Position numbers and translations under genes: made by a program
Notes under the pieces: generated by a model
Told to the model about the DNA's origin: nothing
The model's input: the letters and a program-made list of their open reading frames with translations, nothing else
The model's database searches: none
In this document: piece by piece, positions 55 through 31,316 of the stretch
How the letters are laid out: each line of letters starts with the position of its first letter
Numbering within the stretch: the stretch's first letter is position 1
Source: Methanogenium sp. MK-MG
Lineage (GTDB): Archaea; Halobacteriota; Methanomicrobia; Methanomicrobiales; Methanomicrobiaceae
Length of the DNA stretch: 51,210 nt
NCBI RefSeq assembly: GCF_009914725.1
Contig: NZ_JAAAWJ010000007.1
Location: forward strand, 1-51,210
Direction: 5' to 3'

Positions 55-1038
55 TTAGAGAATTGGAATGTGAGCCCTAATTTTCAACCGGAGTTTGGGA
101 TCAATCATTGTTTTTAAGATCATAAATTCCGTGTTGGGTAAATTATCTTTATACAATGATTGATCCGACAAATTTTGAATATAGATGTTGATTATATTTT
201 TCGTTCCTTCAGAGAAGTATTGTGAATTTCTTTTCGTTAATTCAACTTCTTCTTGTAAGGCATCTTCAGGCCGGTCATAGGCTCCGTTTTCAATAGATTC
301 TATAGCTTCCAAAAGTTCATCAACGGATTGATATCTCTTCGTTCGATCCGGATCACAGGATTTTTTAACAATGTGACGATATTTCTCAGGGATCTCGGAT
401 GGTTCGACAGTACCAAAAGGAGAGCCGGTCAAAATATTTGATAATATCACCCCTAATGAATAAATATCAGTCCGCAAATCGACATCTTTTGCATTTTTCA
501 ATTGTTCAGGAGAACAATACTGATAGGTGCCCATACCATGGGTTGCCGTAAGAGTTGTGGTATCTCTTTCGCTTAAAACCCCTAATCCAAAATCAGTTAT
601 TGCTACGTGCAATTTTTCACCATCTTTTGCAAATAAAAGTATATTATTGGGGTTTAGATCTCGATGAATAGTTCCTCCGTCATGGGCTGCCTTAACCCCT
701 TCCAGTATTTCTTTAAATATCCATAATTCTGACTCACCGGATGTTTCATTGAGATATTTTTTTAAATTTCCATCCCCCAGCGGCATGATATATGAATACA
801 TCTCGCTGCTTGTATCAAAGGACAAAATGGGCACGATATTTTTATGACTTATATTTAAGACCAGCCGGATTTCTCTTTCAAATCTTTTTTTAGCTGATTC
901 ATCAGTAGAATTCAATATTTTTTGTGCATATTTCGTTCCCTGACTATCTTCGACTTCGTAGACAACTGCCTGTCCCCCCCTACCAATTTCCCGGACAATT
1001 GTATAATCCTCCATGAGTGAGTATGGTTTATTATTCAA
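55..1038 (-). CDS. Soluble Hanks-type Ser/Thr protein kinase
   Basis: Predicted cytoplasmic protein kinase of 327 residues. The glycine loop is at about residues 19-26 (GRGGQAVV), the ATP-binding lysine is K40, the HRDLNPNN catalytic loop is at 125-132, DFG is at 149-151, an SPE motif stands in the APE position near 176-178, and DIYSLG follows at 191-196. All catalytic residues are present, so an active enzyme is likely. About 70 residues follow the kinase fold and match nothing I recognise. No membrane segment is visible. It is the last gene of the run that carries the tubulin-like protein and lies 54 bases downstream of the PEGA gene, so co-transcription is plausible. Its DNA is clearly more AT-rich than the rest of the operon, which suggests later acquisition. 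Substrates are unknown; the operon partners are the obvious candidates. Confidence 0.9.
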   Translation of the reverse strand: MNNKPYSLMEDYTIVREIGRGGQAVVYEVEDSQGTKYAQKILNSTDESAKKRFEREIRLVLNISHKNIVPILSFDTSSEMYSYIMPLGDGNLKKYLNETSGESELWIFKEILEGVKAAHDGGTIHRDLNPNNILLFAKDGEKLHVAITDFGLGVLSERDTTTLTATHGMGTYQYCSPEQLKNAKDVDLRTDIYSLGVILSNILTGSPFGTVEPSEIPEKYRHIVKKSCDPDRTKRYQSVDELLEAIESIENGAYDRPEDALQEEVELTKRNSQYFSEGTKNIINIYIQNLSDQSLYKDNLPNTEFMILKTMIDPKLRLKIRAHIPIL

Positions 1039-1092
1039 TAATAATCTATTAGAACCGATTTCTGAAAATAAGATGATGATTTATCCACTGAC

Positions 1093-2814
1093 TTAATCTT
1101 CAGAATCATCGTCCCTACTGGCAGCATCAGCTCCCTTCCCCTCATACAACGTATCAAGTCCTGAGCGGTCGTCTTCCGTAACAACAGTCCCCTCGCCATC
1201 GTCTTTTTGATCCGGAACATGATGCACCTGCTCCACCGGTTCAACGATGAAGGTCTTCTCCACCTTCTTCCCGGCTCTGCCGTATCGCTCCTTGGCAACC
1301 TGAAGGTCCACCATAAAACGGTGAACACCCCGGCTTCTTCCAGAGAGTGGCACATCATATCTTCCGGGGTCGGTGAAGTGGTCGACCGAAACGCCGTCAA
1401 TGTAGACGGTGCAGACAAAACCCCGGTAGGGCCCCCCGGTGACATCGGCGGTAACCTCAGCCCGTGCAAGCGTATCGTTTTCCCGCAGGGTCACCGGGAT
1501 GTGCACAACGATCTCGGGTTTTACCCTGTGCCCTGCAAAGTCCTTTACAAAAAATACCAGGACGAGAAGCACAAGAATAAACGGAGATACGTATATGACG
1601 GCATTGTGAAGATTCGGACTGATGTCACGCGGATTTAAAACCCCGTCCCCGTCGACGTCAACGGCGGCAGCAATGGCAGACTCCGCGTAGTCTATCGCAC
1701 CCGGTGCATCGCCTGCCGCATACCTTTTCTTTGCATCATCTAAGAGTGCCCGGGCCTTTTTCGGGCTGTAGGCAAGGTTTTCAGAGACCACCCGTTCCGC
1801 CTCTGCGATGGCCTCCGGCGCCATTGAAACAAGATTAAATGAAACAGAGGCACCTGCCGCACCGACATCCACCTCTTCTTCAGCACTCCCGTAGCCAAAC
1901 TTCTCTATAAAGACCGTGTGTAACCCCTGTCCGACCGGGATTTCGATAGGGGTGCTGCCTGAAAGAACGCCGTCGACGGAAACGCGGGCACCTTCGGGTG
2001 CGGTGTGAACAGACAGTATGACCTTTGCAGGCGAAAGCTCAGCCTTCACCTCCGATATCCTTCCCGCCGCAACATCAACCCTGCCGGTCCAGTCATCATA
2101 TCCAATTTTTTTGATGACAACATCATAGGTTCCCGGCAGAACATCTTCAAGCGTCTTTCTGGTGTTGCCTTCAAACGTTCCGTTCAGATAAATTTCAGCG
2201 TTCGACGGGACAGACTCAAACGTAATCCTTCCCAGCGTGGATACGGGCTCAAACGTATGCACCAGCGACTGCGACATGCCTTCGTTTATTGTTACCGTTG
2301 CTGCATAGTCGGAGTAATTGTCAAGCTGCAGGAGCACGCGGTGCTGGCCTGCGGGAAGCTCGTAGAGGATGGTATTCGATATGCCGTAGAATGCCCCGTC
2401 GATAAATATCCGTGCACCCTCGGGTGTTGTTGATACCGAGAACGCATCGCCCACCACCGGCTCCATATTATGGCTGATGTAGGCAGTCTGCCCCTCCTTT
2501 ACCTCAAATATCGTCTCCCATGTCCGGTAACCCGGCAGCTCAAGCCGGATATAATGAATGCCCGGAAAGACATCCTTAATCACCGTATTCGTCTGAAGGC
2601 CGAGGAACTCGTCATTCAGATAGATATCCGCCCCCTGTGGATTTGATGTAACAGATATCGTGCCTTTCTGTATATCCGCACTGGCAGGTGAGACTGCCGC
2701 CTGTATGAGCAGAAGAAAAATGATACAGGAGATGATTCTCATTGCCGAAATATTTCTCATGAACGATGCCCGTCTGTGCCATCCGGTTGCAGAGATCAGC
2801 CCTTTATCATTCAT
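1093..2814 (-). CDS. Four-PEGA-domain membrane protein
   Basis: Single-pass envelope protein of 573 residues. A hydrophobic signal segment (about residues 25-47) is followed by four PEGA modules, each with the TxPxGAxIxxDG-type strand and a G-Y/H repeat, to about residue 330. A short helical stretch and a calcium-loop-like DVDGDGVLNPRD (about 390-401) come next. Then there is a second membrane segment (about 412-433) and a roughly 140-residue domain with an acidic tail, presumably cytoplasmic. The start overlaps the upstream stop as TAATG, which supports translational coupling. A second ATG 18 codons on, just before the signal segment, is an alternative start. PEGA modules are found in surface proteins and are thought to bind partners or cell-wall material. 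Here it may be the ligand-facing or scaffold member of the tubulin/GTPase operon. The function is inferred from context only. Confidence 0.85.
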   Translation of the reverse strand: MNDKGLISATGWHRRASFMRNISAMRIISCIIFLLLIQAAVSPASADIQKGTISVTSNPQGADIYLNDEFLGLQTNTVIKDVFPGIHYIRLELPGYRTWETIFEVKEGQTAYISHNMEPVVGDAFSVSTTPEGARIFIDGAFYGISNTILYELPAGQHRVLLQLDNYSDYAATVTINEGMSQSLVHTFEPVSTLGRITFESVPSNAEIYLNGTFEGNTRKTLEDVLPGTYDVVIKKIGYDDWTGRVDVAAGRISEVKAELSPAKVILSVHTAPEGARVSVDGVLSGSTPIEIPVGQGLHTVFIEKFGYGSAEEEVDVGAAGASVSFNLVSMAPEAIAEAERVVSENLAYSPKKARALLDDAKKRYAAGDAPGAIDYAESAIAAAVDVDGDGVLNPRDISPNLHNAVIYVSPFILVLLVLVFFVKDFAGHRVKPEIVVHIPVTLRENDTLARAEVTADVTGGPYRGFVCTVYIDGVSVDHFTDPGRYDVPLSGRSRGVHRFMVDLQVAKERYGRAGKKVEKTFIVEPVEQVHHVPDQKDDGEGTVVTEDDRSGLDTLYEGKGADAASRDDDSED

Positions 2815-4241
2815 TAAATACTGTCTTCCCTATCAGTGAAGAGGCGGTATATTCCCGAATCCGGTATGAAGAACGTTGCCGAGTCTCCGGATATCAGAAG
2901 CGTGGTGTTCACCAGAGCCCATGCATATACCGACTGGTTGTATCTCATCAGGTAATACGACCGTTCCGGTTGGTAATCCGCGTTCACGGCTATGGTCACG
3001 TCCTGAGGAGTTAAGACCATGATATCGTATGCACTTCCGAATCCCGACAGATTGGCGGGGATATTGCCCGGCGTTGTGTTCAGCCGCGTTATAATAAGGG
3101 ACATATCAGGAGCAATCGTTGCCGAAGGCGTGATATGCGGGATTCCGGTTGTATTATGACCGGGAGTTATAAATCCCGGAGGGATGACAAAGAAAAACAC
3201 TACGGCTGCAAGAAGAATGGCACAGACTCCCACAACGGCCAGCAGGCGAACTTTGGCCTTTTTTTCCTCCTCCATATGCTTCTCATACTCGCGTTCAAGA
3301 CCCTCCCGGTCATAATCGTTAATTTTCCATTTGCCGTAGTCCGACTCTTTCGGGTGTTCCGGTAGCTTTTTTTCCTGTGGTTCATATGCAGGGGATGAAA
3401 GATCCCGGAACGATCGGTCAACGATGCCAATCTTCTCCCGGGTCAGAAATTCCCCGAAACGGCCTTCCATGCCGGGCGACATTTTTTTGTTTCTTTTGTA
3501 CTCGGAAACCAGCCGCTCCGTAATAGTTCTTCGTGACGTCTCCCCTGAAAGTCTCTGCCTGATGGCAGGGTTTTGTGCGAAGATACCCATGTTTCGGTAG
3601 ATATCCTCCCACTCCGGATCATTTATCCGTTCAGTGTTCAGGTCGATATGAACCGTTCCGGATGACTTCTCTGTCACCAGCAGGTCTGCGTCCCGGAAGG
3701 TTCTCTTTGCAACAACGATGGTAAACCCCGAGGACAGAAAGGAATGAAGCTTCTCTGTAACAGCAACAGCAAAATCGAGAGACTTCGAGCGGTCACCTGA
3801 AACGCAGACCACCTCCTTTCCAAGAAGCAGCCTGCCGACAGAGTAGTCCGCGGCATTTGAATTCAGAAGGCCGGTTATTGCCTGTTTGTGGCGTTCATCA
3901 AAGAAATCACCGTATGATGCGGGATCACGCACCTCATACTCTATTTCTGAGAGCCTTCTCATGACCCGGCCGTAAAACGCATGGATAAAGGGGAGATCAA
4001 TTCGCGGCGGCAGTCCCCCGCTCCACCCGGTTCTCTCAAGATATATGAACGTGTCAGGCCTTCTCCCCTTCTTCTGCACGTTTACCGCAGTCCCGAGCAG
4101 AACGATGCCGTTTTTTGTGCTGATATACAACGATGCCGTGCTCTCGTCAAGTCTCTCTGCAAGATCTGTTACATACTCGTCATGCAGACCGCCTGCGACA
4201 GTCTCGCCGTCTGTTGTGAATATACCGTATGAATCATCCAT
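2814..4241 (-). CDS. Single-pass membrane protein of unknown family
   Basis: A 475-residue protein with no domain I recognise with confidence. Residues 1-330 look globular and cytoplasmic, with alternating strands and helices. A charged coiled stretch (about 310-335, rich in E, K and R) leads to one clear membrane helix at about 337-360. The roughly 115-residue C-terminal part is rich in T, N and P with N-glycosylation-like NxT/S sites, as expected outside the cell. There is no signal peptide, so the N-terminus should be inside. It sits between the membrane GTPase (35 bases upstream) and the PEGA protein (TAATG overlap). The N-terminal region could be a GTPase-associated domain acting on the neighbouring GTPase, but I see no diagnostic motif. 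Confidence 0.8.
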   Translation of the reverse strand: MDDSYGIFTTDGETVAGGLHDEYVTDLAERLDESTASLYISTKNGIVLLGTAVNVQKKGRRPDTFIYLERTGWSGGLPPRIDLPFIHAFYGRVMRRLSEIEYEVRDPASYGDFFDERHKQAITGLLNSNAADYSVGRLLLGKEVVCVSGDRSKSLDFAVAVTEKLHSFLSSGFTIVVAKRTFRDADLLVTEKSSGTVHIDLNTERINDPEWEDIYRNMGIFAQNPAIRQRLSGETSRRTITERLVSEYKRNKKMSPGMEGRFGEFLTREKIGIVDRSFRDLSSPAYEPQEKKLPEHPKESDYGKWKINDYDREGLEREYEKHMEEEKKAKVRLLAVVGVCAILLAAVVFFFVIPPGFITPGHNTTGIPHITPSATIAPDMSLIITRLNTTPGNIPANLSGFGSAYDIMVLTPQDVTIAVNADYQPERSYYLMRYNQSVYAWALVNTTLLISGDSATFFIPDSGIYRLFTDREDSI

Positions 4242-4276
4242 TGTTTTCGATTAACCCCCCTGAAGAATTACTGACC

Positions 4277-5842
4277 TTACAGGCCGAATTTGAATATCTC
4301 CGAAAACCTCCACGGTGCAAGACCTGTCGGGGAAATTTCCTCTTCAAATCCTTCCTCTGTCGGGAAGGGTTCTGCCGATGCATCAACAGAGACAGCAACA
4401 AAATACATTGATATGTCGTTCATCATGTTTACCAGATTTTTAAAGACCTTGTTTGAACTGAGGATATCAAAGAGACTGTTCTCGATATCCAGTGCCTCTC
4501 TGGACTTTTCAGGAATGTCGGATAATTTACCGGCATTCATTGAGTGAAGCAGGTTTCGTATCTCCTTGTTCTTCCAGAAGACCAGATCCGTTTTGGTAAC
4601 AACGAGGGCGTATTTTTTGTTCGACCCGAAAAACCCGAAGTAATTCTTCCCTTCAAGGTCAATAAGGGTCTTCATATACCCGCCAAACTCCCGTGCAAGC
4701 TGTGCATGACCTTTTCTGCTGTCGGTGATCTTTTCGCCGTCAATCAAAAAGATGACCTTGCCTGCCCTCAGGAAGTTGCCGTACATCGTCGATATGATGA
4801 CGCTTTTGGTAAACTCCGGGTCAATAAGTTGTTCAGAGTGGTGCAGTTTGATGTACCTGACAAAATCAATCGTCCCCGCACTCTTTCTGACCTCACCCAA
4901 AGGCATACCGAGTTGTTCGCTTAACAGGGAGACGGCCTTTTTGAAGTTGATCTCGTTTAACTCATCGTAATATTCGCCTGCATAGTCCACAACCGTCCAT
5001 TTGACAGGAATTAACCCGTACTTCTTCCCGGTAAGCTGGTACATCACCATCTGGTAGCGGTATGTCCGTGAGAGTATCTTCCCGTCGAGGATGTTTGCAT
5101 ACAGATTTGATATGCGCAGTGCGTCGCCTTCGTCATTCGGATCACCCGTTAAGACAACGCCCTCATTTGAATGCCCCTTGTCGAAATGCTCCGATATGTA
5201 GCTCCAGAGGCCGAGAACAAAATATGTCTTCCCGGATGATCGCGGGCCGAATATAAATATCTCAGACGCCCTCACCCCGACGGTGATCTTTATTGCAAGC
5301 CAGTAGAGGATCAAAGAAAGGACAATACCCGTACCGAAGAAGAAGATGCTCTGTGTCGCATATGCCTCACTGACTGCTGTATCCGGTGCGAGGGCCGTTA
5401 TATACAGTTCATAGGCAAGAAAACCGACAATGATTGCAAAGAACAGGGTAAAGAGCACCTTGGCGGATGTTGCAAGATTGTCGTAACGGTTTGTGAGAAC
5501 CGCCTGTGCGACAAAGACCGCACCGCAGAGGATGCCTAATGAGAAGATGAGGAGTAAGAGACTGACATCCGCCCATGGCGAAGAATAGACATAAAAGACC
5601 GGTAATAAAGCAAATATGCCCGCGTATATGACACCGTTTATCCGGGAATCCTCATTGAAGAGCATGCCCACCGCGATGATGAAGAAAAGACCGCATAAAA
5701 ATTCAACCAAAACCGTCAACCCAAATCCTGGAGGGTGGAGCTTAAAGACCGGGGCCACGGTTGTGAATATCCAGGCGACAATGATGCTTAGAGGGAGACC
5801 TAAAAGAAGATACAATTGTCTTCTTTTATTGTTGATGATCAT
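4277..5842 (-). CDS. Polytopic membrane P-loop GTPase
   Basis: A 521-residue protein with about six or seven hydrophobic helices in residues 10-190, followed by a cytoplasmic GTPase domain. GTPase motifs: G1 GPRSSGKT at 199-206, G3 DYAG at 286-289 (DxxG), and G4 TKTD at 416-419. The spacing and the aromatic-rich G3 region recall the TRAFAC-class GTPases found in prokaryotic multi-gene systems ('double-GTPase' groups) rather than translation or Era-type enzymes. Its first codons overlap the end of the tubulin-like gene by four bases (ATGA), so the two are almost certainly made together. I infer a membrane-anchored switch that recruits or regulates the polymer-forming neighbour. An ATPase is possible but less likely given the TKTD motif. 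Confidence 0.85.
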   Translation of the reverse strand: MIINNKRRQLYLLLGLPLSIIVAWIFTTVAPVFKLHPPGFGLTVLVEFLCGLFFIIAVGMLFNEDSRINGVIYAGIFALLPVFYVYSSPWADVSLLLLIFSLGILCGAVFVAQAVLTNRYDNLATSAKVLFTLFFAIIVGFLAYELYITALAPDTAVSEAYATQSIFFFGTGIVLSLILYWLAIKITVGVRASEIFIFGPRSSGKTYFVLGLWSYISEHFDKGHSNEGVVLTGDPNDEGDALRISNLYANILDGKILSRTYRYQMVMYQLTGKKYGLIPVKWTVVDYAGEYYDELNEINFKKAVSLLSEQLGMPLGEVRKSAGTIDFVRYIKLHHSEQLIDPEFTKSVIISTMYGNFLRAGKVIFLIDGEKITDSRKGHAQLAREFGGYMKTLIDLEGKNYFGFFGSNKKYALVVTKTDLVFWKNKEIRNLLHSMNAGKLSDIPEKSREALDIENSLFDILSSNKVFKNLVNMMNDISMYFVAVSVDASAEPFPTEEGFEEEISPTGLAPWRFSEIFKFGL

Positions 5843-8800
5843 TCCCTGACTGCCTCTTTGATATCCTTTACCGTGTATAAGTCCAGAACCCTCTTCTTTG
5901 CCTCTTCAATCTGTGCTTTGTCACCGGATTCAAGGTCTGCGATCTCTGCTGCTTCGGTTAACAGCAGGGTCTTATCACGGACAACGTACTTCCCCTCGTG
6001 CAGGTACAGGGCATGGTGGAGGATATTGTTCCTCGCCTTCTCGTACTTCTCCCAGTATCCTCCGCCTGTTGTCAGGGGAGATATGTTGTCGAGGAAACTT
6101 GCCGCTGCAAAGAACGTGAGCGATATCTCCCAGGGCTTGGTGTAGTTGTGCGAGTTGACCTTGGCGCTGTCGACACCTTTTAAGTCCAGGGACTTTACCA
6201 GATTGCGCCTGAAGTCACTGCCTTTGTTGTCTATCAGCTGTGAGAGCCAGTGGGACGGTGACGATGCGACAAGGGCGGCCTTGTCAAAGCTCCATCTCTC
6301 GGTACCGGCACTCCCGTATCCGATGGATATGTTGTTGATACCAAGTTTGTGTGCATCGACAAGCTCCTTGTACTTCCACTGCACAATGTTGTAGAGCTTC
6401 TCAATCTCGAGTTTTCCCTCTTCGTCATAGTCAAGAACAGAGAGATCTGAGTCATCGTTTAGCAGTGAGAGAATGTTGGGGTTAATCTCACCGAACCACG
6501 TCCGGTACATCCCCTCGATGGTTACGTTTCCGCTCTTTCTCTTCTCGTCAATGCTCCTCAGGCCGGATTCATACGCATTCACTTCTGCATTGAATTTCTT
6601 TCTTGAGTCAAAGGTGGCGCTCACCAGATTGTCAGTCTTCTCCAAAAATTCGATCTGCTGCTGCATCTGCTTCTGCGACTGGATCAGAGAGTCAATATCG
6701 GTGTTGATGTTCCCAGTCTTTGAGGTGTAGCCTTCGCGGCTGTTTACGATCTCTGTCAGTGTCTCCCTGATGCTCGTGAGAACCGATGCGGTGTCCCTTC
6801 CGGAAAAGGACCGGATCAGCTCTGCCTTCTCTTCCGATTCAAGGTTGAACTGCGAGAGAAGAGGTGCAATTGTCCCCTCCCTCAAAGAGCCAAGCCGGGT
6901 GTCGAACTCACGGGTAAGGAATTTGTCCTGTATGAAGACCTCAAAGGGGTCGCGTATGGATATCTTTCCGGGATGCATCTGGGATATCTTGCGTATCCTC
7001 TCCTCCTTTGTCGCCTTCTCGCTTCTGAACATCTCGGAGTTGAGTTTCTTTCCCAAAAGACTGTCAGTAAATCCCTGTTTCCTGGCTACCCTGAGCATGT
7101 AGTCGTTGTAGAAGTAGAGGGATACCGACTCTGCCAGATCCTTTAGGTAGGAGAAGTCTGACGACGTCGCCTGCTCGATCTGTTCGATATCCCCCTGAAG
7201 GTCTCCGAGCGAAAGTGATGAGAGCCATGCCGCACGTTTAATGGGCTTTGCCTTCTTCTTCTCCGACTGGTTAAGCTTCTCCTGCAGGACAATGAGCAGG
7301 GTGGAAAACTTCTCCAGAAATGCCCGTTCGAGAACTTCTATGGAGTCCTGACCGGCGGCAGCGGCTGTGCCGTGGCCGAGTGCAACATAATCATCGACAG
7401 GTCTTGCCAGTGCGTTGACTTCAGACCTGATGAGGTCAAGCATCCTGTTCTGCTCTTTTGTAATATCAACCAGTTCTGAGCGCTTGTTTTTGACCCTGAC
7501 ATCGGCCTCGCTTATTTCGCCTTTCAGTGCCGACTGGCGGGATGAGAGCATGCCTGATACCTTGCCGAAGTTCTCCTCGCCACGTATGATATTTACAAGT
7601 GCAGTTCTTGCGGATTTTCCGTTTACCGAGAGCGTCTTCTTCTGGAGTTCGGACATCTCCTCCAGGAGCTGGAGGTTCTTTTTGATGACTTCGTATAACT
7701 CCTGATCCTTTGCATTCTCGTGCGGTTTGCTCTCGTTTTCAAGGGATCTCCTGAGCCGTGTGACATACTCCGAGAGTTTATCAAAATCCTTAACAGAGGA
7801 GATGTCCTTCAGCTCCTCGGGCATGTTGTTGGTGATCGCCGATTCGATAATGGACTGCGTCTTGAAGTTTAAGAGATCGGTGATCTCGTTCTCCCAGACC
7901 TTCTTTACCTTCTCGATCTCCTTTCGGTAGAGGTTTACGTCATCGTGGGTGATCTCGGTATCAGTCTTTGAAAACTCCTCAGGGCAGAGGGTTTCACTGG
8001 TTGCGATAAAGTCAGTGACCTCTTTCAGGATCTTCTCCCTGTTCTGTGAAATTCCCGATAGGCTTTCGATCACGTCCTCAAAGCCTTTCTTCAGGGATCG
8101 CAGGTTTTCAACAGGGTACTCTATCACATGGGAATCCGCAAAGATAAAACCGGAATAGTCCTTTTTGGCGTCCACGATGGCGGATATGTCGGCCGTCGGG
8201 AGGTAGAAGGAGTTGATGAACATGTAGGGGAAGGAGGAGTCAAACTCGACGACCTCCTGCTTCCGGTCCCCCCCGTCCACGTAGCCGGTGGGGCTCAGGG
8301 ATGAGACGATGATGTAGTTGAAGAGCTTGTCGTCCTTCATGTTGAGATATTCAATCTCCGAGAGTGCGATAGCAGCGTTTAGCTGCTCCTTTTCACCCTC
8401 GCTTGCCGCCGGAAGCACCACAAAGAGCCAGATTTTTGACTCCTGGCCGCGTTTTTCCTTGATGTAGCGGGCAAGATCGATAAACATCCCTGAGCCGGTA
8501 CCGCCTCCGAGACCGACAACGATGGCAACAGGACCGTGGCCCTGAAACGACGGGAACTGCTCTCCGCCCTGGGTGATTGCCTTGTAGAACACCGCCTTTG
8601 ATATGGCACGCCTGCGGTGTACTCCCCCGCCGAAGTCGTCTACGATGTTTTTGTCGATCTGCTTGAGCATCTGGTAGTCGAATCCGTATTCGGGATCATT
8701 CATCCACCATACGTCAACAAGAGGGCGTTCACGCCTGTTTTTGATCTGCTCGGCAATCCCCTTTGATGTCAGGGACGACACACGCTCGACATTGGCAAGG

Positions 8801-9099
8801 TCAGGGAGGTGGTAATGATAGCTCTTTACGCTCCCTCCCATCTGGTTGTTTGTCTTCTGAATCCCGCCGACCTTCGCCCTGACCTCTTCTGATCGTGCTA
8901 TGTCGTCCTTTCTCTGGTTTGAGTCGGTGTCTATCGTGTAGAGGGTGAGACGTTTTCCGTCTGAAAGATAGTGCTTTAAGAACCATTCGTGGTCATACAG
9001 GTTTGATATGAGTTTTTTTCCGCACCCCCCTATGGCAACGACGGTCAGTTCATCAGGCATCTGGAAGGCTTTTCCCTCGATTATATCATCATGAGCCAT
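5839..9099 (-). CDS. Large tubulin/FtsZ-superfamily protein with long helical tail
   Basis: A 1086-residue protein. The N-terminal third shows the tubulin-superfamily GTP-binding pattern: a glycine-rich strand-loop at 21-28 (VAIGGCGK), an acidic TIDTDSNQ stretch at 55-62, and the signature loop GGGTGSG at 198-204, followed by the expected LFVVLPAASEGE strand-turn. The remaining 700 or so residues are strongly charged and helical with several coiled-coil stretches, then a mixed C-terminal region. It is far longer than FtsZ (about 350-400) or CetZ and is not a cell-division FtsZ. It best fits the Tubulin_2-like group of divergent tubulins. Two GTPases, one membrane-bound, are thus co-translated, suggesting a GTP-driven polymer or motor at the membrane. 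Polymerisation is inferred and cannot be shown from sequence. Confidence 0.85.
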   Translation of the reverse strand: MAHDDIIEGKAFQMPDELTVVAIGGCGKKLISNLYDHEWFLKHYLSDGKRLTLYTIDTDSNQRKDDIARSEEVRAKVGGIQKTNNQMGGSVKSYHYHLPDLANVERVSSLTSKGIAEQIKNRRERPLVDVWWMNDPEYGFDYQMLKQIDKNIVDDFGGGVHRRRAISKAVFYKAITQGGEQFPSFQGHGPVAIVVGLGGGTGSGMFIDLARYIKEKRGQESKIWLFVVLPAASEGEKEQLNAAIALSEIEYLNMKDDKLFNYIIVSSLSPTGYVDGGDRKQEVVEFDSSFPYMFINSFYLPTADISAIVDAKKDYSGFIFADSHVIEYPVENLRSLKKGFEDVIESLSGISQNREKILKEVTDFIATSETLCPEEFSKTDTEITHDDVNLYRKEIEKVKKVWENEITDLLNFKTQSIIESAITNNMPEELKDISSVKDFDKLSEYVTRLRRSLENESKPHENAKDQELYEVIKKNLQLLEEMSELQKKTLSVNGKSARTALVNIIRGEENFGKVSGMLSSRQSALKGEISEADVRVKNKRSELVDITKEQNRMLDLIRSEVNALARPVDDYVALGHGTAAAAGQDSIEVLERAFLEKFSTLLIVLQEKLNQSEKKKAKPIKRAAWLSSLSLGDLQGDIEQIEQATSSDFSYLKDLAESVSLYFYNDYMLRVARKQGFTDSLLGKKLNSEMFRSEKATKEERIRKISQMHPGKISIRDPFEVFIQDKFLTREFDTRLGSLREGTIAPLLSQFNLESEEKAELIRSFSGRDTASVLTSIRETLTEIVNSREGYTSKTGNINTDIDSLIQSQKQMQQQIEFLEKTDNLVSATFDSRKKFNAEVNAYESGLRSIDEKRKSGNVTIEGMYRTWFGEINPNILSLLNDDSDLSVLDYDEEGKLEIEKLYNIVQWKYKELVDAHKLGINNISIGYGSAGTERWSFDKAALVASSPSHWLSQLIDNKGSDFRRNLVKSLDLKGVDSAKVNSHNYTKPWEISLTFFAAASFLDNISPLTTGGGYWEKYEKARNNILHHALYLHEGKYVVRDKTLLLTEAAEIADLESGDKAQIEEAKKRVLDLYTVKDIKEAVRE

Positions 9100-9104
9100 T
9101 GTTT

Positions 9105-9890
9105 TTAGTCCCCCTTGTATTCATTATGAAAATCCTGCATGTTCTTGGCCCTTATCCGGCCGAATACCATTCCGGTTGTAAATCCTGCGACAAGAAGCAC
9201 AACTGCAATCAGAATCGCTGTTGTAACCGGAATGCTTGCATCTTCTGGCGATTCTGCGAATTGTAAGAGGTCTTCTGCCTCATCCCTGAGCCCTCTGGAG
9301 TAGAGGTCATCGATAAGCGCTCTCATATCAGGGTCTGTGACTGCGTTCAGCCGTGACATGAACTCTTCGTCATCAGGGATTGTAACCGAAAATGTATCTG
9401 TTGTGCCTGTTCCGAGAATATCACGGTTTTCATCAAGCGCCTCGATGTGGTAGTAGACATACCCTGTTGTCTGGGTGATTCTTTTTGTTACCACAACGCC
9501 GTCAACAATTTCAACCGATGTCAGCACCGGCACCCTGCCATATACGCTTACGGTAATTTTGTCCGGGAATTCTCCGACCTCGGTAAGCTCAATTTTATGG
9601 TCGTTTAATGCCTCGTCCCCTCCAGATACATTAAAACCACTCCCTTCTGTCTGCCAGAGATTCGTGTCCGGTACAGGCATGAGATCAGTATTTATCTCTA
9701 TAATCCGTGCCTGCTTGGGGATGCTACTCACTTCAATCGTATATTGTATTAATTCCCCCTCATTCAGGGATTCAGAAAGCGTTCCATTCGTTAATTCCGC
9801 AACAATGGCAGCGGAAGGCACACATATCAGCAGAAATGAAAATATCAGTGCCAGTGATATACATATGGATGCCCGATTCCTTATTCGCAT
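9105..9890 (-). CDS. Type I membrane protein, first gene of tubulin operon
   Basis: A 261-residue protein with a signal peptide (charged RIRNR start, hydrophobic 10-28, ending near AA-I). It has a beta-rich extracellular domain of about 180 residues, resembling Ig-like or CARDB-like folds but without a diagnostic motif. One membrane helix lies at about 222-243 (IPVTTAILIAVVLLVAGF), followed by a short basic cytoplasmic tail. It is first in the operon, and its stop lies only five bases from the tubulin-like start. A surface domain with a short inner tail fits a sensor or anchor for the cytoplasmic machine. The family is not recognised. Confidence 0.8.
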   Translation of the reverse strand: MRIRNRASICISLALIFSFLLICVPSAAIVAELTNGTLSESLNEGELIQYTIEVSSIPKQARIIEINTDLMPVPDTNLWQTEGSGFNVSGGDEALNDHKIELTEVGEFPDKITVSVYGRVPVLTSVEIVDGVVVTKRITQTTGYVYYHIEALDENRDILGTGTTDTFSVTIPDDEEFMSRLNAVTDPDMRALIDDLYSRGLRDEAEDLLQFAESPEDASIPVTTAILIAVVLLVAGFTTGMVFGRIRAKNMQDFHNEYKGD

Positions 9891-13700: not shown

Positions 13701-14579
13701 TTATCCGTTGATCCAGTAGATAACGGTGTCCTGATTTGCATCCACCCATGCCTTTGCGGCAACTTCAGGGGTTTCGCCGCCCTCGACAGCGAGCATGACA
13801 GATTCCATGTCAGCGGGCGTCCAGGAGAAGCGTTCAAGGATAGCGTATGCATCGGGATTGTCTTCCTTAAAGCCCATGCGTGCAAGACTTGCAATATACT
13901 CTTCCCCGCCGTACACACCCTGGGGGTCGTCGAGATACTTCAGGTCAAAGCGGACGAACTTCCAGTGGGGTGTCCAGCCGGTGACAACGATCCAGTCACC
14001 ATCTGCGTATGCATCAGTGAGCTGGGCAGCCATGCCGGCACTCGATGACGCCACCAACGTGTAGTCAAGACTGTAGTTTTCGATGACGGTTTCGGTCATC
14101 GCCATGATGCCTGCACCCGGCTCAATACCGGTGATTTTGCCGTCGAACTTGTCTGCAACATCGTTCATCTCATCGATTGAGTCGATGGTCACATACTGGG
14201 GAACTACGAGACCTACCTTTGCTCCCTGAAGGTTTTCGCCAACCATCACGATGTCGTCACCATAGGTGTCCCAGTAGGCGGCGTGGGTGGCGGGCATCCA
14301 TGACGAGATGCTCATGTCAACCTGCCCATCAGAAAGGCCCTGATAAAGAGGACCGACGTCAACGGCCATGAGCTCCACATCGTAGCCTGCCTGTTCATAT
14401 ACGGTCTTTAATACATTGGTACTTGCAATCTCTGAATCCCAGAGCACATAGCCGATGGAGACCTCTTTTGTGGGTTCGGTTGTTTGAGAACCGACTTCAT
14501 CCGTGCAGCCGGCAACAAAGATTACACTGAATAACACTAACAAAACAAGAAAAATACCTTTGGATTTTAAATTTAGCAC
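13701..14579 (-). CDS. opuAC: Glycine betaine/proline-betaine binding lipoprotein, copy 2
   Basis: Extracytoplasmic substrate-binding subunit for compatible-solute uptake, 292 residues. A signal segment ends in a lipobox-like VAGC (C25), so it is probably lipid-anchored outside the membrane. The body matches the OpuAC/ProX type (IGYVLWDSEIAST near the start; the repeated GIEPGAGIM and GDWIVVTGWTPHW stretches contain the aromatic residues used to cage quaternary amines). It is a tandem paralogue of the next upstream gene, most alike in the signal region where the DNA is almost identical. It has its own promoter-like leader, so it may be expressed separately. Two copies may differ in substrate or simply raise dose. 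Confidence 0.9.
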   Translation of the reverse strand: MLNLKSKGIFLVLLVLFSVIFVAGCTDEVGSQTTEPTKEVSIGYVLWDSEIASTNVLKTVYEQAGYDVELMAVDVGPLYQGLSDGQVDMSISSWMPATHAAYWDTYGDDIVMVGENLQGAKVGLVVPQYVTIDSIDEMNDVADKFDGKITGIEPGAGIMAMTETVIENYSLDYTLVASSSAGMAAQLTDAYADGDWIVVTGWTPHWKFVRFDLKYLDDPQGVYGGEEYIASLARMGFKEDNPDAYAILERFSWTPADMESVMLAVEGGETPEVAAKAWVDANQDTVIYWING

Positions 14580-14594
14580 ATAAACACATCCATT

Positions 14595-14645
14595 AAGTCA
14601 AAAAACCGTCGAATAACGATTCGGGACTGACTTATAAAAAATATG
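14595..14645 (-). promoter_or_regulatory. Promoter with inverted repeat before binding-protein copy 2
   Basis: AAGTCA (14595-14600) and TGACTT (14628-14633) form an inverted repeat directly beside a TATA-like ATAAAAAATATG (plus-strand reading) upstream of the minus-strand gene. A related GTCAG/CTGAC arrangement precedes copy 1 at about 15844-15883, so the element was duplicated with the gene. It may be an operator for osmotic control. Confidence 0.45.
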
Positions 14646-14682
14646 ATGAAAGGTTATATATGTATATTTATATCAATCTCTC

Positions 14683-14835
14683 CTGACCAGAGTGGATCAT
14701 ATGCTCTGTGACATGACCGGAGATGATAGCAATGAGGCCAAGGCACGCCCTCAAACCCACGACCCAGATCATTGCCGCGATGGCGGTCATCAGGAGAGCG
14801 GACGTGATGCACCGGACGAAGAGGTGAACCCCGGA
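14683..14835 (-). pseudogene. Decayed fragment of betaine permease 3' end
   Basis: The DNA resembles the last part of the intact permease gene: CTGACC...TGTGNCATGA, GATNATCGCAATGA, CGCCCTCAAACCCA, then GATCATTGCCGCGATGGCGGTCATC and GTGATGCACCGG. The block between CAAACCCA and GATCAT is shortened by tens of bases relative to the intact copy, and the reading frame is destroyed. It sits exactly where a permease end should lie if a permease-end plus binding-protein unit had been tandemly duplicated. Confidence 0.7.
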
Positions 14836-14947
14836 GATGTTCAGGTGATCCGGTTTTACAACACATCACAGGCACAATACTCCATGCTTACAGATACGGC
14901 TTTCACACATACCCGGTGGGTGGCGTCTAAAAAAGATATCGGGGTAA

Positions 14948-15826
14948 TTACCCGTTGATCCAGTAGTTAACAGTGTCTTGGTTTGCATCCATCCATGCCT
15001 TTGCGGCAACTTCAGGGGTTTCGCCGCCCTCAATTGCAAGCATCACGGATTCCATGTCCCTGGATTCCCAGTGGAAGCGCTCAAGAATGGCGTATGCCTC
15101 AGGATTCTCTTCCTTAAAGCCTGTGCGGGCAAGGCTTCCGAGATACTCCTCGCCGCCATACACACCCTCAGGGTCATCGAGATACTTCAGGTCGAAGCGG
15201 ACAAACATCCAGTGTGGAGTCCAGCCGGTGACAACGATCCAGTCACCATCCCCATATGCATCGGTGAGCTGTGCGGCCATGCCGGCACTCGACGACGGTA
15301 CAAGCATGTAGTCAAGACTGTAGTTCTCGATGACGACCTCAGTATTGATCATGATACCTGCCCCCGGTTCAATGCCCATAATCTTGCCATTGAACTTGTC
15401 TGCGACATCGTTCATCTCGGTTATGGAGTCAATGGTCACATACGAAGGGACCACAAGACCGATCTTTGCTCCCTCGAGGTTCTTGCCAACCAGCACGATG
15501 TCGTCGCCGTAGGTCTCCCAGTAGTTTGCCTGCGTAGTGGGCAGCCATGCGGAGACACTCATATCAACCTTACCATCGGCCAGTGCCTGGTAGAGAGGAC
15601 CTGCATCAACGGCCTTGAGCTCTACATCGTAGCCTGCCTGTTCATACACTTTCTTTACCACATTGGTACTGGCAATCTCTGAATCCCAGAGCACATAGCC
15701 GATGGAGACCTCTTTTGTGGGTTCGGTTGTTTGAGAACCGGCTTCATCCGTGCAGCCGGCAACAAAGATTACACTGAATAACACTAACAAAATAAGTAAA
15801 AGTCCTTTCATTTTCGAATTAACCAA
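14948..15826 (-). CDS. opuAC: Glycine betaine/proline-betaine binding lipoprotein, copy 1
   Basis: Same family and length (292) as its downstream neighbour: signal segment with VAGC lipobox, then an OpuAC/ProX-type body with GIEPGAGIM and GDWIVVTGWTPHWMF stretches. This copy directly follows the permease gene (97 bases) and so is the likely original partner of the transporter. Differences from copy 2 are spread through the mature protein (for example LPTTQANYWE against MPATHAAYWD), while the signal region is nearly identical at DNA level. That pattern is expected from a fairly recent duplication or gene conversion. Confidence 0.92.
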   Translation of the reverse strand: MVNSKMKGLLLILLVLFSVIFVAGCTDEAGSQTTEPTKEVSIGYVLWDSEIASTNVVKKVYEQAGYDVELKAVDAGPLYQALADGKVDMSVSAWLPTTQANYWETYGDDIVLVGKNLEGAKIGLVVPSYVTIDSITEMNDVADKFNGKIMGIEPGAGIMINTEVVIENYSLDYMLVPSSSAGMAAQLTDAYGDGDWIVVTGWTPHWMFVRFDLKYLDDPEGVYGGEEYLGSLARTGFKEENPEAYAILERFHWESRDMESVMLAIEGGETPEVAAKAWMDANQDTVNYWING

Positions 15827-29996: not shown

Positions 29997-31316
29997 ATGA
30001 CAGGTCGTGCACACCGGCGTCTCTGTGCCGGCATCCTGATCCTCATTGTAGGTGCCCTCCTCCTATGCCCCGCAGCAGCAGGAATGGCACACTACCGCAT
30101 CCACTCCAATGTTGACTACGCACAGGTCTATTTTGACAGCGTCTATAAGGGCCAGATATCCGGGGGAGTGCTGACCGTCAGTGTCTCCACCACCGGCACC
30201 CGCTACAGCACAGCAGAAGTCCGGAAGGCCGGATATTACACCACCTCACAGAGCCTGCCATATATAACGGACGGCTCGTCCACTGACCTCTACTTCACCC
30301 TGAACGAGGACAGCAGCGTAACCACCGCTACGCTTGCGGTGCAGACCACACCCTCAGGCGCCTCGGTGTATATCAACGGCATCTATCAGGGAACTTCCCC
30401 CGTGACCGTCAACGGCATCCGCTCGGGCACGTACACCGTAATTGCAGAGATGCCGGGTTCTGAGAGTGCAACCGAGGTTGTCACCGTAACAGGTGGTGAA
30501 TACCGGACCGTCACCCTCAACCTGGGCGGCAACGGCGCAATCACGTTCACCTCTGACCCCTCTGGCGCATTTATTGAACTCGACGGCACCATCATTGGCA
30601 CAACACCCCACACGGCAACCGATGTAACACCCCGGGAACACCAGATTGTCATCATAAAAAACGGTTATTATAACTGGCGTGAGACGATTGACATGACCGG
30701 TGGCGGCACCCGCTCCATATACGCCACCCTTAGATCTGCTACACCAAAGAATGCCATACGCATCAGTTCAGTCCCGGCCGGCGCTGCAATATACCTCAAC
30801 GGCATCTACCAGGGGGAGACGATGGAGAGCGGATATTTTCCCATCACCGACCTCAGGACAGGACAACATACCATCCTCCTCAGACTCAGAGGATACGACG
30901 ATTACCAGGAGAGAGTCTCCCTCTCAGAAGGGCAGACCGTGACGGTCTATGCCAACCTGGAAGGAGGATCGGGCAGCGCCACTACCACACCGTCTGCGGG
31001 GACAGGGAAACTCGCCCTGAGCACCAGCCCGCCGGGTGCGGAGATCCGTATTGACGGAAGTATATCTGATCGTATGACACCGGCGACCATCACAGGCATT
31101 CCCGCAGGCACCCACACTATCCGCCTGCAGCTTGCCGGATATGCACCTGCTGAGGCGACGGTGACTGTCACCGCCGGCCAGACAGCCTCACTCTCCCTGC
31201 CGCTCGCACCGGGCGAAGCGACACCACCCGTGCCCACCAAAAGCCCGGCACCTCTCTTCTTCCCGGCAGCAGGGCTTTTGGCTCTGCTCTTCGCCCGGTG
31301 GCGAGACATCCGGTGA
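29997..31316 (+). CDS. Surface PEGA-repeat protein
   Basis: A 439-residue exported protein. A signal peptide (RAHRRLCAGILILIVGALLLC...AAAG) is followed by a degenerate PEGA-like module and four clear ones (LAVQTTPSGASVYING, ITFTSDPSGAFIELDG, IRISSVPAGAAIYLNG and LALSTSPPGAEIRIDG). A Thr/Pro linker and a C-terminal hydrophobic helix with RWRDIR come last, so it is anchored with its bulk outside. The tail lacks the PGF motif, so archaeosortase A processing is unlikely. It is divergent from the Yip1-PKD operon and together they form an envelope cluster. PEGA modules also occur in the tubulin operon at the left of the window. Confidence 0.9.
   Translation: MTGRAHRRLCAGILILIVGALLLCPAAAGMAHYRIHSNVDYAQVYFDSVYKGQISGGVLTVSVSTTGTRYSTAEVRKAGYYTTSQSLPYITDGSSTDLYFTLNEDSSVTTATLAVQTTPSGASVYINGIYQGTSPVTVNGIRSGTYTVIAEMPGSESATEVVTVTGGEYRTVTLNLGGNGAITFTSDPSGAFIELDGTIIGTTPHTATDVTPREHQIVIIKNGYYNWRETIDMTGGGTRSIYATLRSATPKNAIRISSVPAGAAIYLNGIYQGETMESGYFPITDLRTGQHTILLRLRGYDDYQERVSLSEGQTVTVYANLEGGSGSATTTPSAGTGKLALSTSPPGAEIRIDGSISDRMTPATITGIPAGTHTIRLQLAGYAPAEATVTVTAGQTASLSLPLAPGEATPPVPTKSPAPLFFPAAGLLALLFARWRDIR

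Follow-up and report, generated by a model that had tools for sequence, protein, structure and literature searches.

Do six same-strand genes at one end of contig NZ_JAAAWJ010000007.1 of Methanogenium sp. MK-MG encode an undescribed membrane machine? This question was raised by a first-pass annotation made from the letters, which proposed a six-gene operon for a tubulin-superfamily protein, a membrane GTPase, further membrane proteins and a kinase. We analyzed the whole stretch of 51,210 nucleotides (the window) and compared the locus with its relatives. We find that the locus belongs to the FtsZl1 (Tubulin_2) membrane systems, a kind already described in 2010, and represents their methanogen form. 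Its conserved unit is smaller than proposed, comprising five genes (9890-1093) with a minimal set of P6, the tubulin-like protein, the GTPase and P3. The predicted gene products, in transcription order, are as follows.

9105..9890, minus strand: P6, the first gene of the unit, with a signal peptide, an extracellular beta-rich domain, a C-terminal transmembrane helix and a short cytosolic tail
5839..9099, minus strand: Tubulin_2/FtsZl1 protein of 1086 residues, assigned by Pfam, AlphaFold and Foldseek
4277..5842, minus strand: membrane GTPase with about six N-terminal transmembrane helices and a C-terminal P-loop GTPase domain, likely of DO-GTPase type
2814..4241, minus strand: P3, with a cytosolic N-terminus, one transmembrane helix and an extracellular beta domain
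1093..2814, minus strand: four-PEGA protein with a signal peptide, four extracellular PEGA domains, a transmembrane helix at 405-423 and a cytosolic tail
55..1038, minus strand: cytosolic Ser/Thr protein kinase with a TTG start, or an ATG at 1014

A check of the open reading frames (ORFs) in the window confirmed all six minus-strand genes and the gaps between them, with junctions of 5 nt, a 4-nt overlap, 35 nt, a 1-nt overlap and 54 nt. The motifs GGGTGSG, GPRSSGKT, DYAG and TKTD were also as the first-pass annotation had read them. Hydropathy analysis agreed with its membrane assignments, giving a signal and a single transmembrane segment near the C-terminus for P6, 6-7 segments for the GTPase, a single pass at about 335-353 for P3, a signal and a segment at about 405-423 for the PEGA protein, and none for the tubulin-like protein or the kinase. 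Pfam searches identified the four PEGA stretches (E=1.5e-58) and the kinase (Pkinase, E=1.7e-36). No Pfam family was found for P6 or P3, and neither had a convincing match in Pfam, NCBIfam, PADLOC or PDB sequences.

To assess the extent of the unit, we examined 38 Tubulin_2 gene regions from the order Methanomicrobiales and 78 loci of named genomes. The Methanomicrobia loci contained 63 copies of the tubulin gene, with some loci representing the same genome twice, and some neighbor exceptions among these copies reflect contig ends, broken ORFs or the limits of simple ORF picking. In 60 of the 63 copies, P6 was the immediate upstream neighbor of the tubulin gene, and in 58 the GTPase gene lay downstream, mostly with 4-base overlaps. 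P3, where present, was always immediately downstream of the GTPase gene, and the PEGA gene adjoined P3 in 30 copies, in Methanomicrobiales only. The order P6-tubulin-GTPase-P3-PEGA, with its 4-base or short junctions, was constant in Methanomicrobiaceae carriers, and a small number of Methanoculleus-type, Methanofollis-family and other genomes also shared the five-gene order. Most Methanofollis genomes had P6-tubulin-GTPase only. Methanosarcina, Methanolobus, Methanosalsum and ANME-2 carried P6-tubulin-GTPase-P3 without PEGA; the four-gene set thus reaches Methanosarcinales.

We further searched 232 whole genomes of the order. A window-type tubulin gene was present in 33 of them, according to a hand-made list that excludes the Tubulin_2 proteins of roughly 700-770 residues in family f6. 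The GTPase accompanied it in 32 of the 33 genomes (P about 1e-34) and P6 in all 33 (P about 3e-39), both being raw values in which relatedness is ignored. Neither outcome that would have undone the first-pass reading, a tubulin-like gene without its partners in most relatives or a predicted structure without the tubulin fold, was observed. Within the window's own family, genomes without the tubulin gene were also without the GTPase and P6, except for one genome (G107) in which fragments of P6 and P3 stood at contig ends. Divergence was correlated among the four core proteins (Mantel r 0.93-0.97, p=0.001). The tubulin-like protein was 91% identical to that of M. marinum, which agrees with a place for the window in Methanogenium, and comparison with close relatives gave dN/dS values of 0.05-0.09 for the tubulin-like and GTPase genes and 0.11-0.29 for the ectodomain proteins, indicating that the former two are under strong purifying selection. 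The conservation of the unit exceeds chance: its gene order and junctions are repeated in other genera, its GTPase and P6 genes accompany the tubulin gene across genomes, and selection on the tubulin-like and GTPase genes is purifying.

Several loci departed from this pattern. One operon, like those of firmicutes, had two tubulins: after the PEGA gene came a further FtsZl1 paralogue, diverged (28% identical) and 1096 residues long (L062:13771-17061). In Methanogenium cariaci (L045:6300-15100), the tubulin and P3 genes were each split into several ORFs, reflecting assembly error or decay. A contig labelled Bacteroidota (L086) bore a Methanoculleus-type operon with gene spacings identical to those of a Methanoculleus contig (L087), and is probably a misbinned contig in a public genome. 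Where the Methanomicrobiales have PEGA, other large surface-type proteins end the FtsZl1 locus in Geoglobus and haloarchaea (L112:7035-10508, L115:18376-21582 and L116:16671-19814), with carboxypeptidase-regulatory-like repeats, InlB-type repeats or a PQQ beta-propeller.

The sixth gene did not belong to the unit. The GC content of the kinase gene was 36.7%, compared with 46-53% in the five core genes, and just two genomes, that of the window and that of Methanogenium sp. CSMAG_280, had it next to the operon; the neighborhood survey did not find it there in other relatives. Its nearest homologue (82% identical) was located at a contig end in CSMAG_280, and the remainder of the PEGA gene came after it in the same arrangement as in the window, so the kinase probably entered the locus in an ancestor of the two genomes. 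The next-closest homologues (55% and 36% identical) sit away from the operon. PADLOC also matched the kinase to defense kinases (PD-T4-6 and mad6), which we attribute to general similarity among Ser/Thr kinases. As an AT-rich neighbor that adjoins the operon in a single relative, the kinase was rejected as a core component and is an optional, lineage-specific addition. Thus, the five-gene part of the proposed operon stood, whereas the membership of the kinase, and with it phosphorylation control as a core feature, did not.

Membership of the tubulin superfamily was well supported. The protein matched Tubulin_2 (PF13809) with 49.3 bits against a curated cut-off of 27 (E=5.5e-13), and the Pfam Tubulin profile also matched (E=3.5e-9). 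The AlphaFold model (pLDDT 87, 42 homologues) comprised a tubulin-type GTP-binding domain (about 15-330), a helical coiled coil (about 330-856) and a C-terminal alpha/beta domain. A Foldseek search of PDB with the model returned CetZ2 (4b45) as the best match (E=6.1e-6, TM-score 0.50 on the target), followed by FtsZ, an Odinarchaeota tubulin and beta-tubulin. The T1 (GGCGK), T4 (GGGTGSG, residues 198-204) and T5 (P230, E234 and N241) motifs showed little or no variation across 42 sequences.

The alignment of the tubulin-like protein with FtsZ was unreliable past the T6 region, and the T7 assignment was therefore made by motif and secondary structure only. In the model, a strand (262-267) is followed by a helix (281-297), the segment TADISAIVDA, a short helix and a further strand (318-327). 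The stretch from helix 281-297 to strand 318-327 resembles H7-T7-H8-S7 of FtsZ and offers a candidate T7 aspartate; the T7-like residues D304 and D310, which follow the helix after S6, were kept in 37 and 39 of the 42 sequences, respectively. Since the earlier strands are used by the GTP domain and residues 330-712 are helical in the model, with no unassigned strand before residue 713 to pair with strand 318-327, this strand probably pairs with C-terminal strands, in which case the activation domain would be split by the inserted coiled coil.

The family is not new. FtsZl1 was defined in archaea and bacteria together with a divergent GTPase, kinases and membrane proteins, the archaeal GTPases being membrane-associated, and Methanospirillum hungatei and Methanosarcina acetivorans were within the set of Makarova and Koonin (PMC2875224). 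The link to that study, which the first-pass annotation had made, was correct; its word "undescribed" was not, as the family, its methanogen members, the kinases and the membrane GTPases are in the 2010 paper and related GTPase systems appear in a later one (PMC7159879). The absence of a visible vWA protein also held, with no Pfam match in the six proteins and one stray match in a MIDAS-like scan of the Methanomicrobia loci. A vWA gene is found in most, but not all, FtsZl1 operons and was not obligatory in the original description (PMC2875224). Tubulin_2 proteins have been placed apart from the FtsZ/tubulin family proper (PMC9871819).

The GTPase carries the motifs GPRSSGKT, DYAGE and TKTD. 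On its own, the window protein matched DO-GTPase2 with E=0.083, under the Pfam cut-off (PF19993/PF19975). The profile was matched by all 19 GTPase family members compared (best E=1.2e-4), and hhalign aligned the family with firmicute DO-GTPases of GAP1 operons over 181 columns (P=3e-4). The Walker B glutamate, a DO-GTPase hallmark according to Kaur et al. (PMC7159879), was present in the window protein and its Methanomicrobiaceae homologues, with K, S or R in its place in Methanofollis. From these profile comparisons, the GTPase is likely a distant, homologous member of the DO-GTPase family. A weak match to SR beta (E=0.021) was not significant alone.

The AlphaFold model of P3 (pLDDT 75.6) has a longin-like part (1-115), a second alpha/beta part (129-270), a transmembrane helix (335-353) and an extracellular beta domain (380-470). 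Longin domains have the order strand-strand-helix-three strands-helix-helix, and residues 3-115 of the model follow the same order. Foldseek matches were weak, with none below 1e-3 (TagF 9t0n, E=1.3e-3; Roadblock 7f8m, 0.09). The cytosolic domain of P3 thus looks longin/roadblock-like in the model, which is a fold of GTPase regulators. Longin or roadblock partners combine a small regulator fold with a Ras-like GTPase, as in SR beta/SR alpha SRX and MglA/MglB, and in the SR case the paired GTPase is membrane-anchored. The likeness of the GTPase-P3 pair to these systems is by analogy only.

P3 shares its position downstream of the GTPase with GAP1, and we considered it as a GAP1 (PF20013) homologue. 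For this profile-profile comparison, GAP1-N2 proteins were taken from 22 firmicute loci, three of which were examined as 20-kb operons. P3 had no Pfam match to GAP1 and the hhalign values were P=0.29 and 0.042, so this candidate was rejected; the collinear alignment behind the value of 0.042 is only suggestive. A search of the genomes that carry the tubulin loci, bacterial as well as archaeal, found no GAP1.

The GTPase-P3 pair occurred without a detectable tubulin or P6 in three family f6 genomes (L219:9692-12776, L220:3944-7131 and L221:67-3355). Next to the first of these pairs is a Ser/Thr kinase gene, and genes for a DisA-like DAC and an AAA ATPase are nearby; the second has PP2C, PEGA and two vWA genes as neighbors. 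The occurrence of the pair without a tubulin and with other neighbors suggests that the GTPase and P3 act as a separable switch pair combined with varying partners, by analogy with GTPase and GAP1 in Kaur et al.

The window looks like housekeeping chromosome, with genes for tyrosyl-tRNA synthetase, Rio kinase, purA, pdxS/pdxT and Orc1/Cdc6. Another surface protein, whose repeats look PEGA-like by eye, lies on the opposite strand (29997-31316) and is unlinked to the operon. At 13701-15826, two closely similar tandem substrate-binding lipoproteins, a recent duplication, adjoin what looks like a glycine-betaine-type ABC transporter.

What might the unit do? A membrane-tethered, GTP-driven machine, as the first-pass annotation proposed, is still the most economical reading, with its function predicted. 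In the form that we favor, and hold to be about evenly balanced between right and wrong, a membrane-anchored GTPase-P3 switch controls a sub-envelope tubulin-like scaffold, with ectodomains outside. Judging from pairing, gene order and predicted fold, the cytosolic domain of P3 would bind and regulate the G domain of the polytopic GTPase, and this switch would recruit or gate the tubulin-like protein, whose GTP-site motifs and fold are in place. The tubulin-like protein would bind GTP and may, through its tubulin domain, build a filament or patch that lines the membrane on its inner face, where the coiled coil would serve as a spacer or cross-linker. P6, the ectodomain of P3 and the PEGA protein, which by hydropathy reach outside, may sense or hold the S-layer or envelope, and the state outside would be coupled to the scaffold inside. 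The kinase, where present, would be an optional later input. The outcome may be local shaping, reinforcement or repair of membrane and envelope rather than cell division, because the same genome also encodes two FtsZ-type proteins, one CetZ-type protein and a fourth tubulin relative.

Several points weigh against this reading. The correlated divergence and the co-occurrence are partly due to shared ancestry. Filament formation is a prediction, and the 2010 study failed to recognize T6-H7 and the elements beyond in FtsZl1 (PMC2875224). The longin assignment of P3 is based on secondary-structure order and weak structural matches, P3 did not qualify as a GAP1 homologue, and experiments on the FtsZl1 family were not found in the open-licence literature.

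The DO-GTPase kinship raises a different possibility, in which an invader detected at the membrane by the GTPase pair would cause the tubulin-like protein to polymerize as a conflict or immune response (cf. Kaur et al.). The recurrence of PEGA, kinase, PP2C and vWA genes around the GTPase-P3 pair and the patchy occurrence of the system, which several genera of the same family lack, are consistent with it, as are the archaeal cases in multicellular Methanosarcina reported by Kaur et al. (PMC7159879). However, there is no variable effector, and the five genes are constant across the genera of the family and strongly conserved. Moreover, none of the five core genes had a convincing PADLOC match, and the window does not resemble a defense island. 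We consider an immune role unlikely.

We regard as similarly improbable a role in envelope, osmotic or mechanical stress signaling, with the tubulin-like protein as a non-polymerizing GTP-dependent platform and the GTPase and kinase carrying the signal. The ectodomains of P6, P3 and the PEGA protein would suit such a role, as would the surface-repeat or beta-propeller proteins that end the locus in other lineages, and transport or signaling was proposed in Jekely's review within the 2010 paper (PMC2875224). But T1, T4 and T5 are intact in the 42 sequences and a T7-like aspartate is kept in 37, as expected of an active, assembling tubulin, and the kinase is not conserved. A vesiculation or remodeling machine making vesicles or internal membranes, as strictly proposed by Makarova and Koonin for a GTPase, a tubulin-like protein and membrane partners (PMC2875224), seems very doubtful; the locus has no component of dynamin, ESCRT or vWA type.

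Whether these proteins form filaments is an old question that is now directly testable, because the four core genes occur in the genetically tractable Methanosarcina. Few branches of the tubulin superfamily have diverged as far as FtsZl1; the survey defines its minimal set and a separable GTPase-P3 pair, and joins the membrane-remodeling and conflict-system literatures, which describe overlapping machinery under different names.

Like the FtsZl1 operons of 2010, the locus encodes a protein of ~1050 residues with an N-terminal tubulin-type GTP domain, a central coiled coil and a mostly helical C-terminal region, together with a divergent GTPase, membrane-bound in archaea, and further membrane proteins. 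Unlike those operons, the methanogen loci are without a vWA or OmpA gene, the PEGA protein is confined to Methanomicrobiales and the kinase to two Methanogenium genomes. With CetZ, FtsZ and bona fide tubulins, the protein shares the predicted fold and GTP-binding loops, whereas its very long coiled coil, unrelated-looking C-terminal domain and operon with a membrane GTPase set it apart.

The DO-GTPase systems, mainly bacterial and proposed to act in conflict, combine GAP1, tubulins, transmembrane-bearing GTPases, PEGA and kinases (PMC7159879). In the firmicute loci, two tubulins and a vWA-transmembrane protein accompany a DO-GTPase followed by GAP1. Common to these DO-GTPase/GAP1-N2 systems and the methanogen unit are a G domain of likely DO-GTPase type, several N-terminal transmembrane helices in some members, a transmembrane-bearing partner directly downstream, a coiled-coil tubulin, and PEGA, kinase, PP2C and vWA as associated parts. 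The differences are that P3 has no detectable GAP1 homology and that no zinc ribbon, FNIII, HSP70 or vWA was recognized in the window operon. Tentatively, and with a low probability, archaeal FtsZl1 operons and bacterial DO-GTPase/GAP1 systems may be one ancient machine, in which a membrane-anchored GTPase and its longin-fold partner (P3 as the diverged equivalent of GAP1-N2) control a tubulin with a 500-residue coiled coil dividing its activation domain; if so, an outside sensor would directly drive cytoskeletal scaffold assembly in archaea. Compared with the described systems, what is new here is a PEGA-bearing methanogen form with a GTPase-P3 switch and no vWA, along with the likely distant DO-GTPase kinship of the GTPase, the GTPase-P3 pair without a tubulin, the longin/roadblock-like look of P3 and a candidate T7 aspartate.

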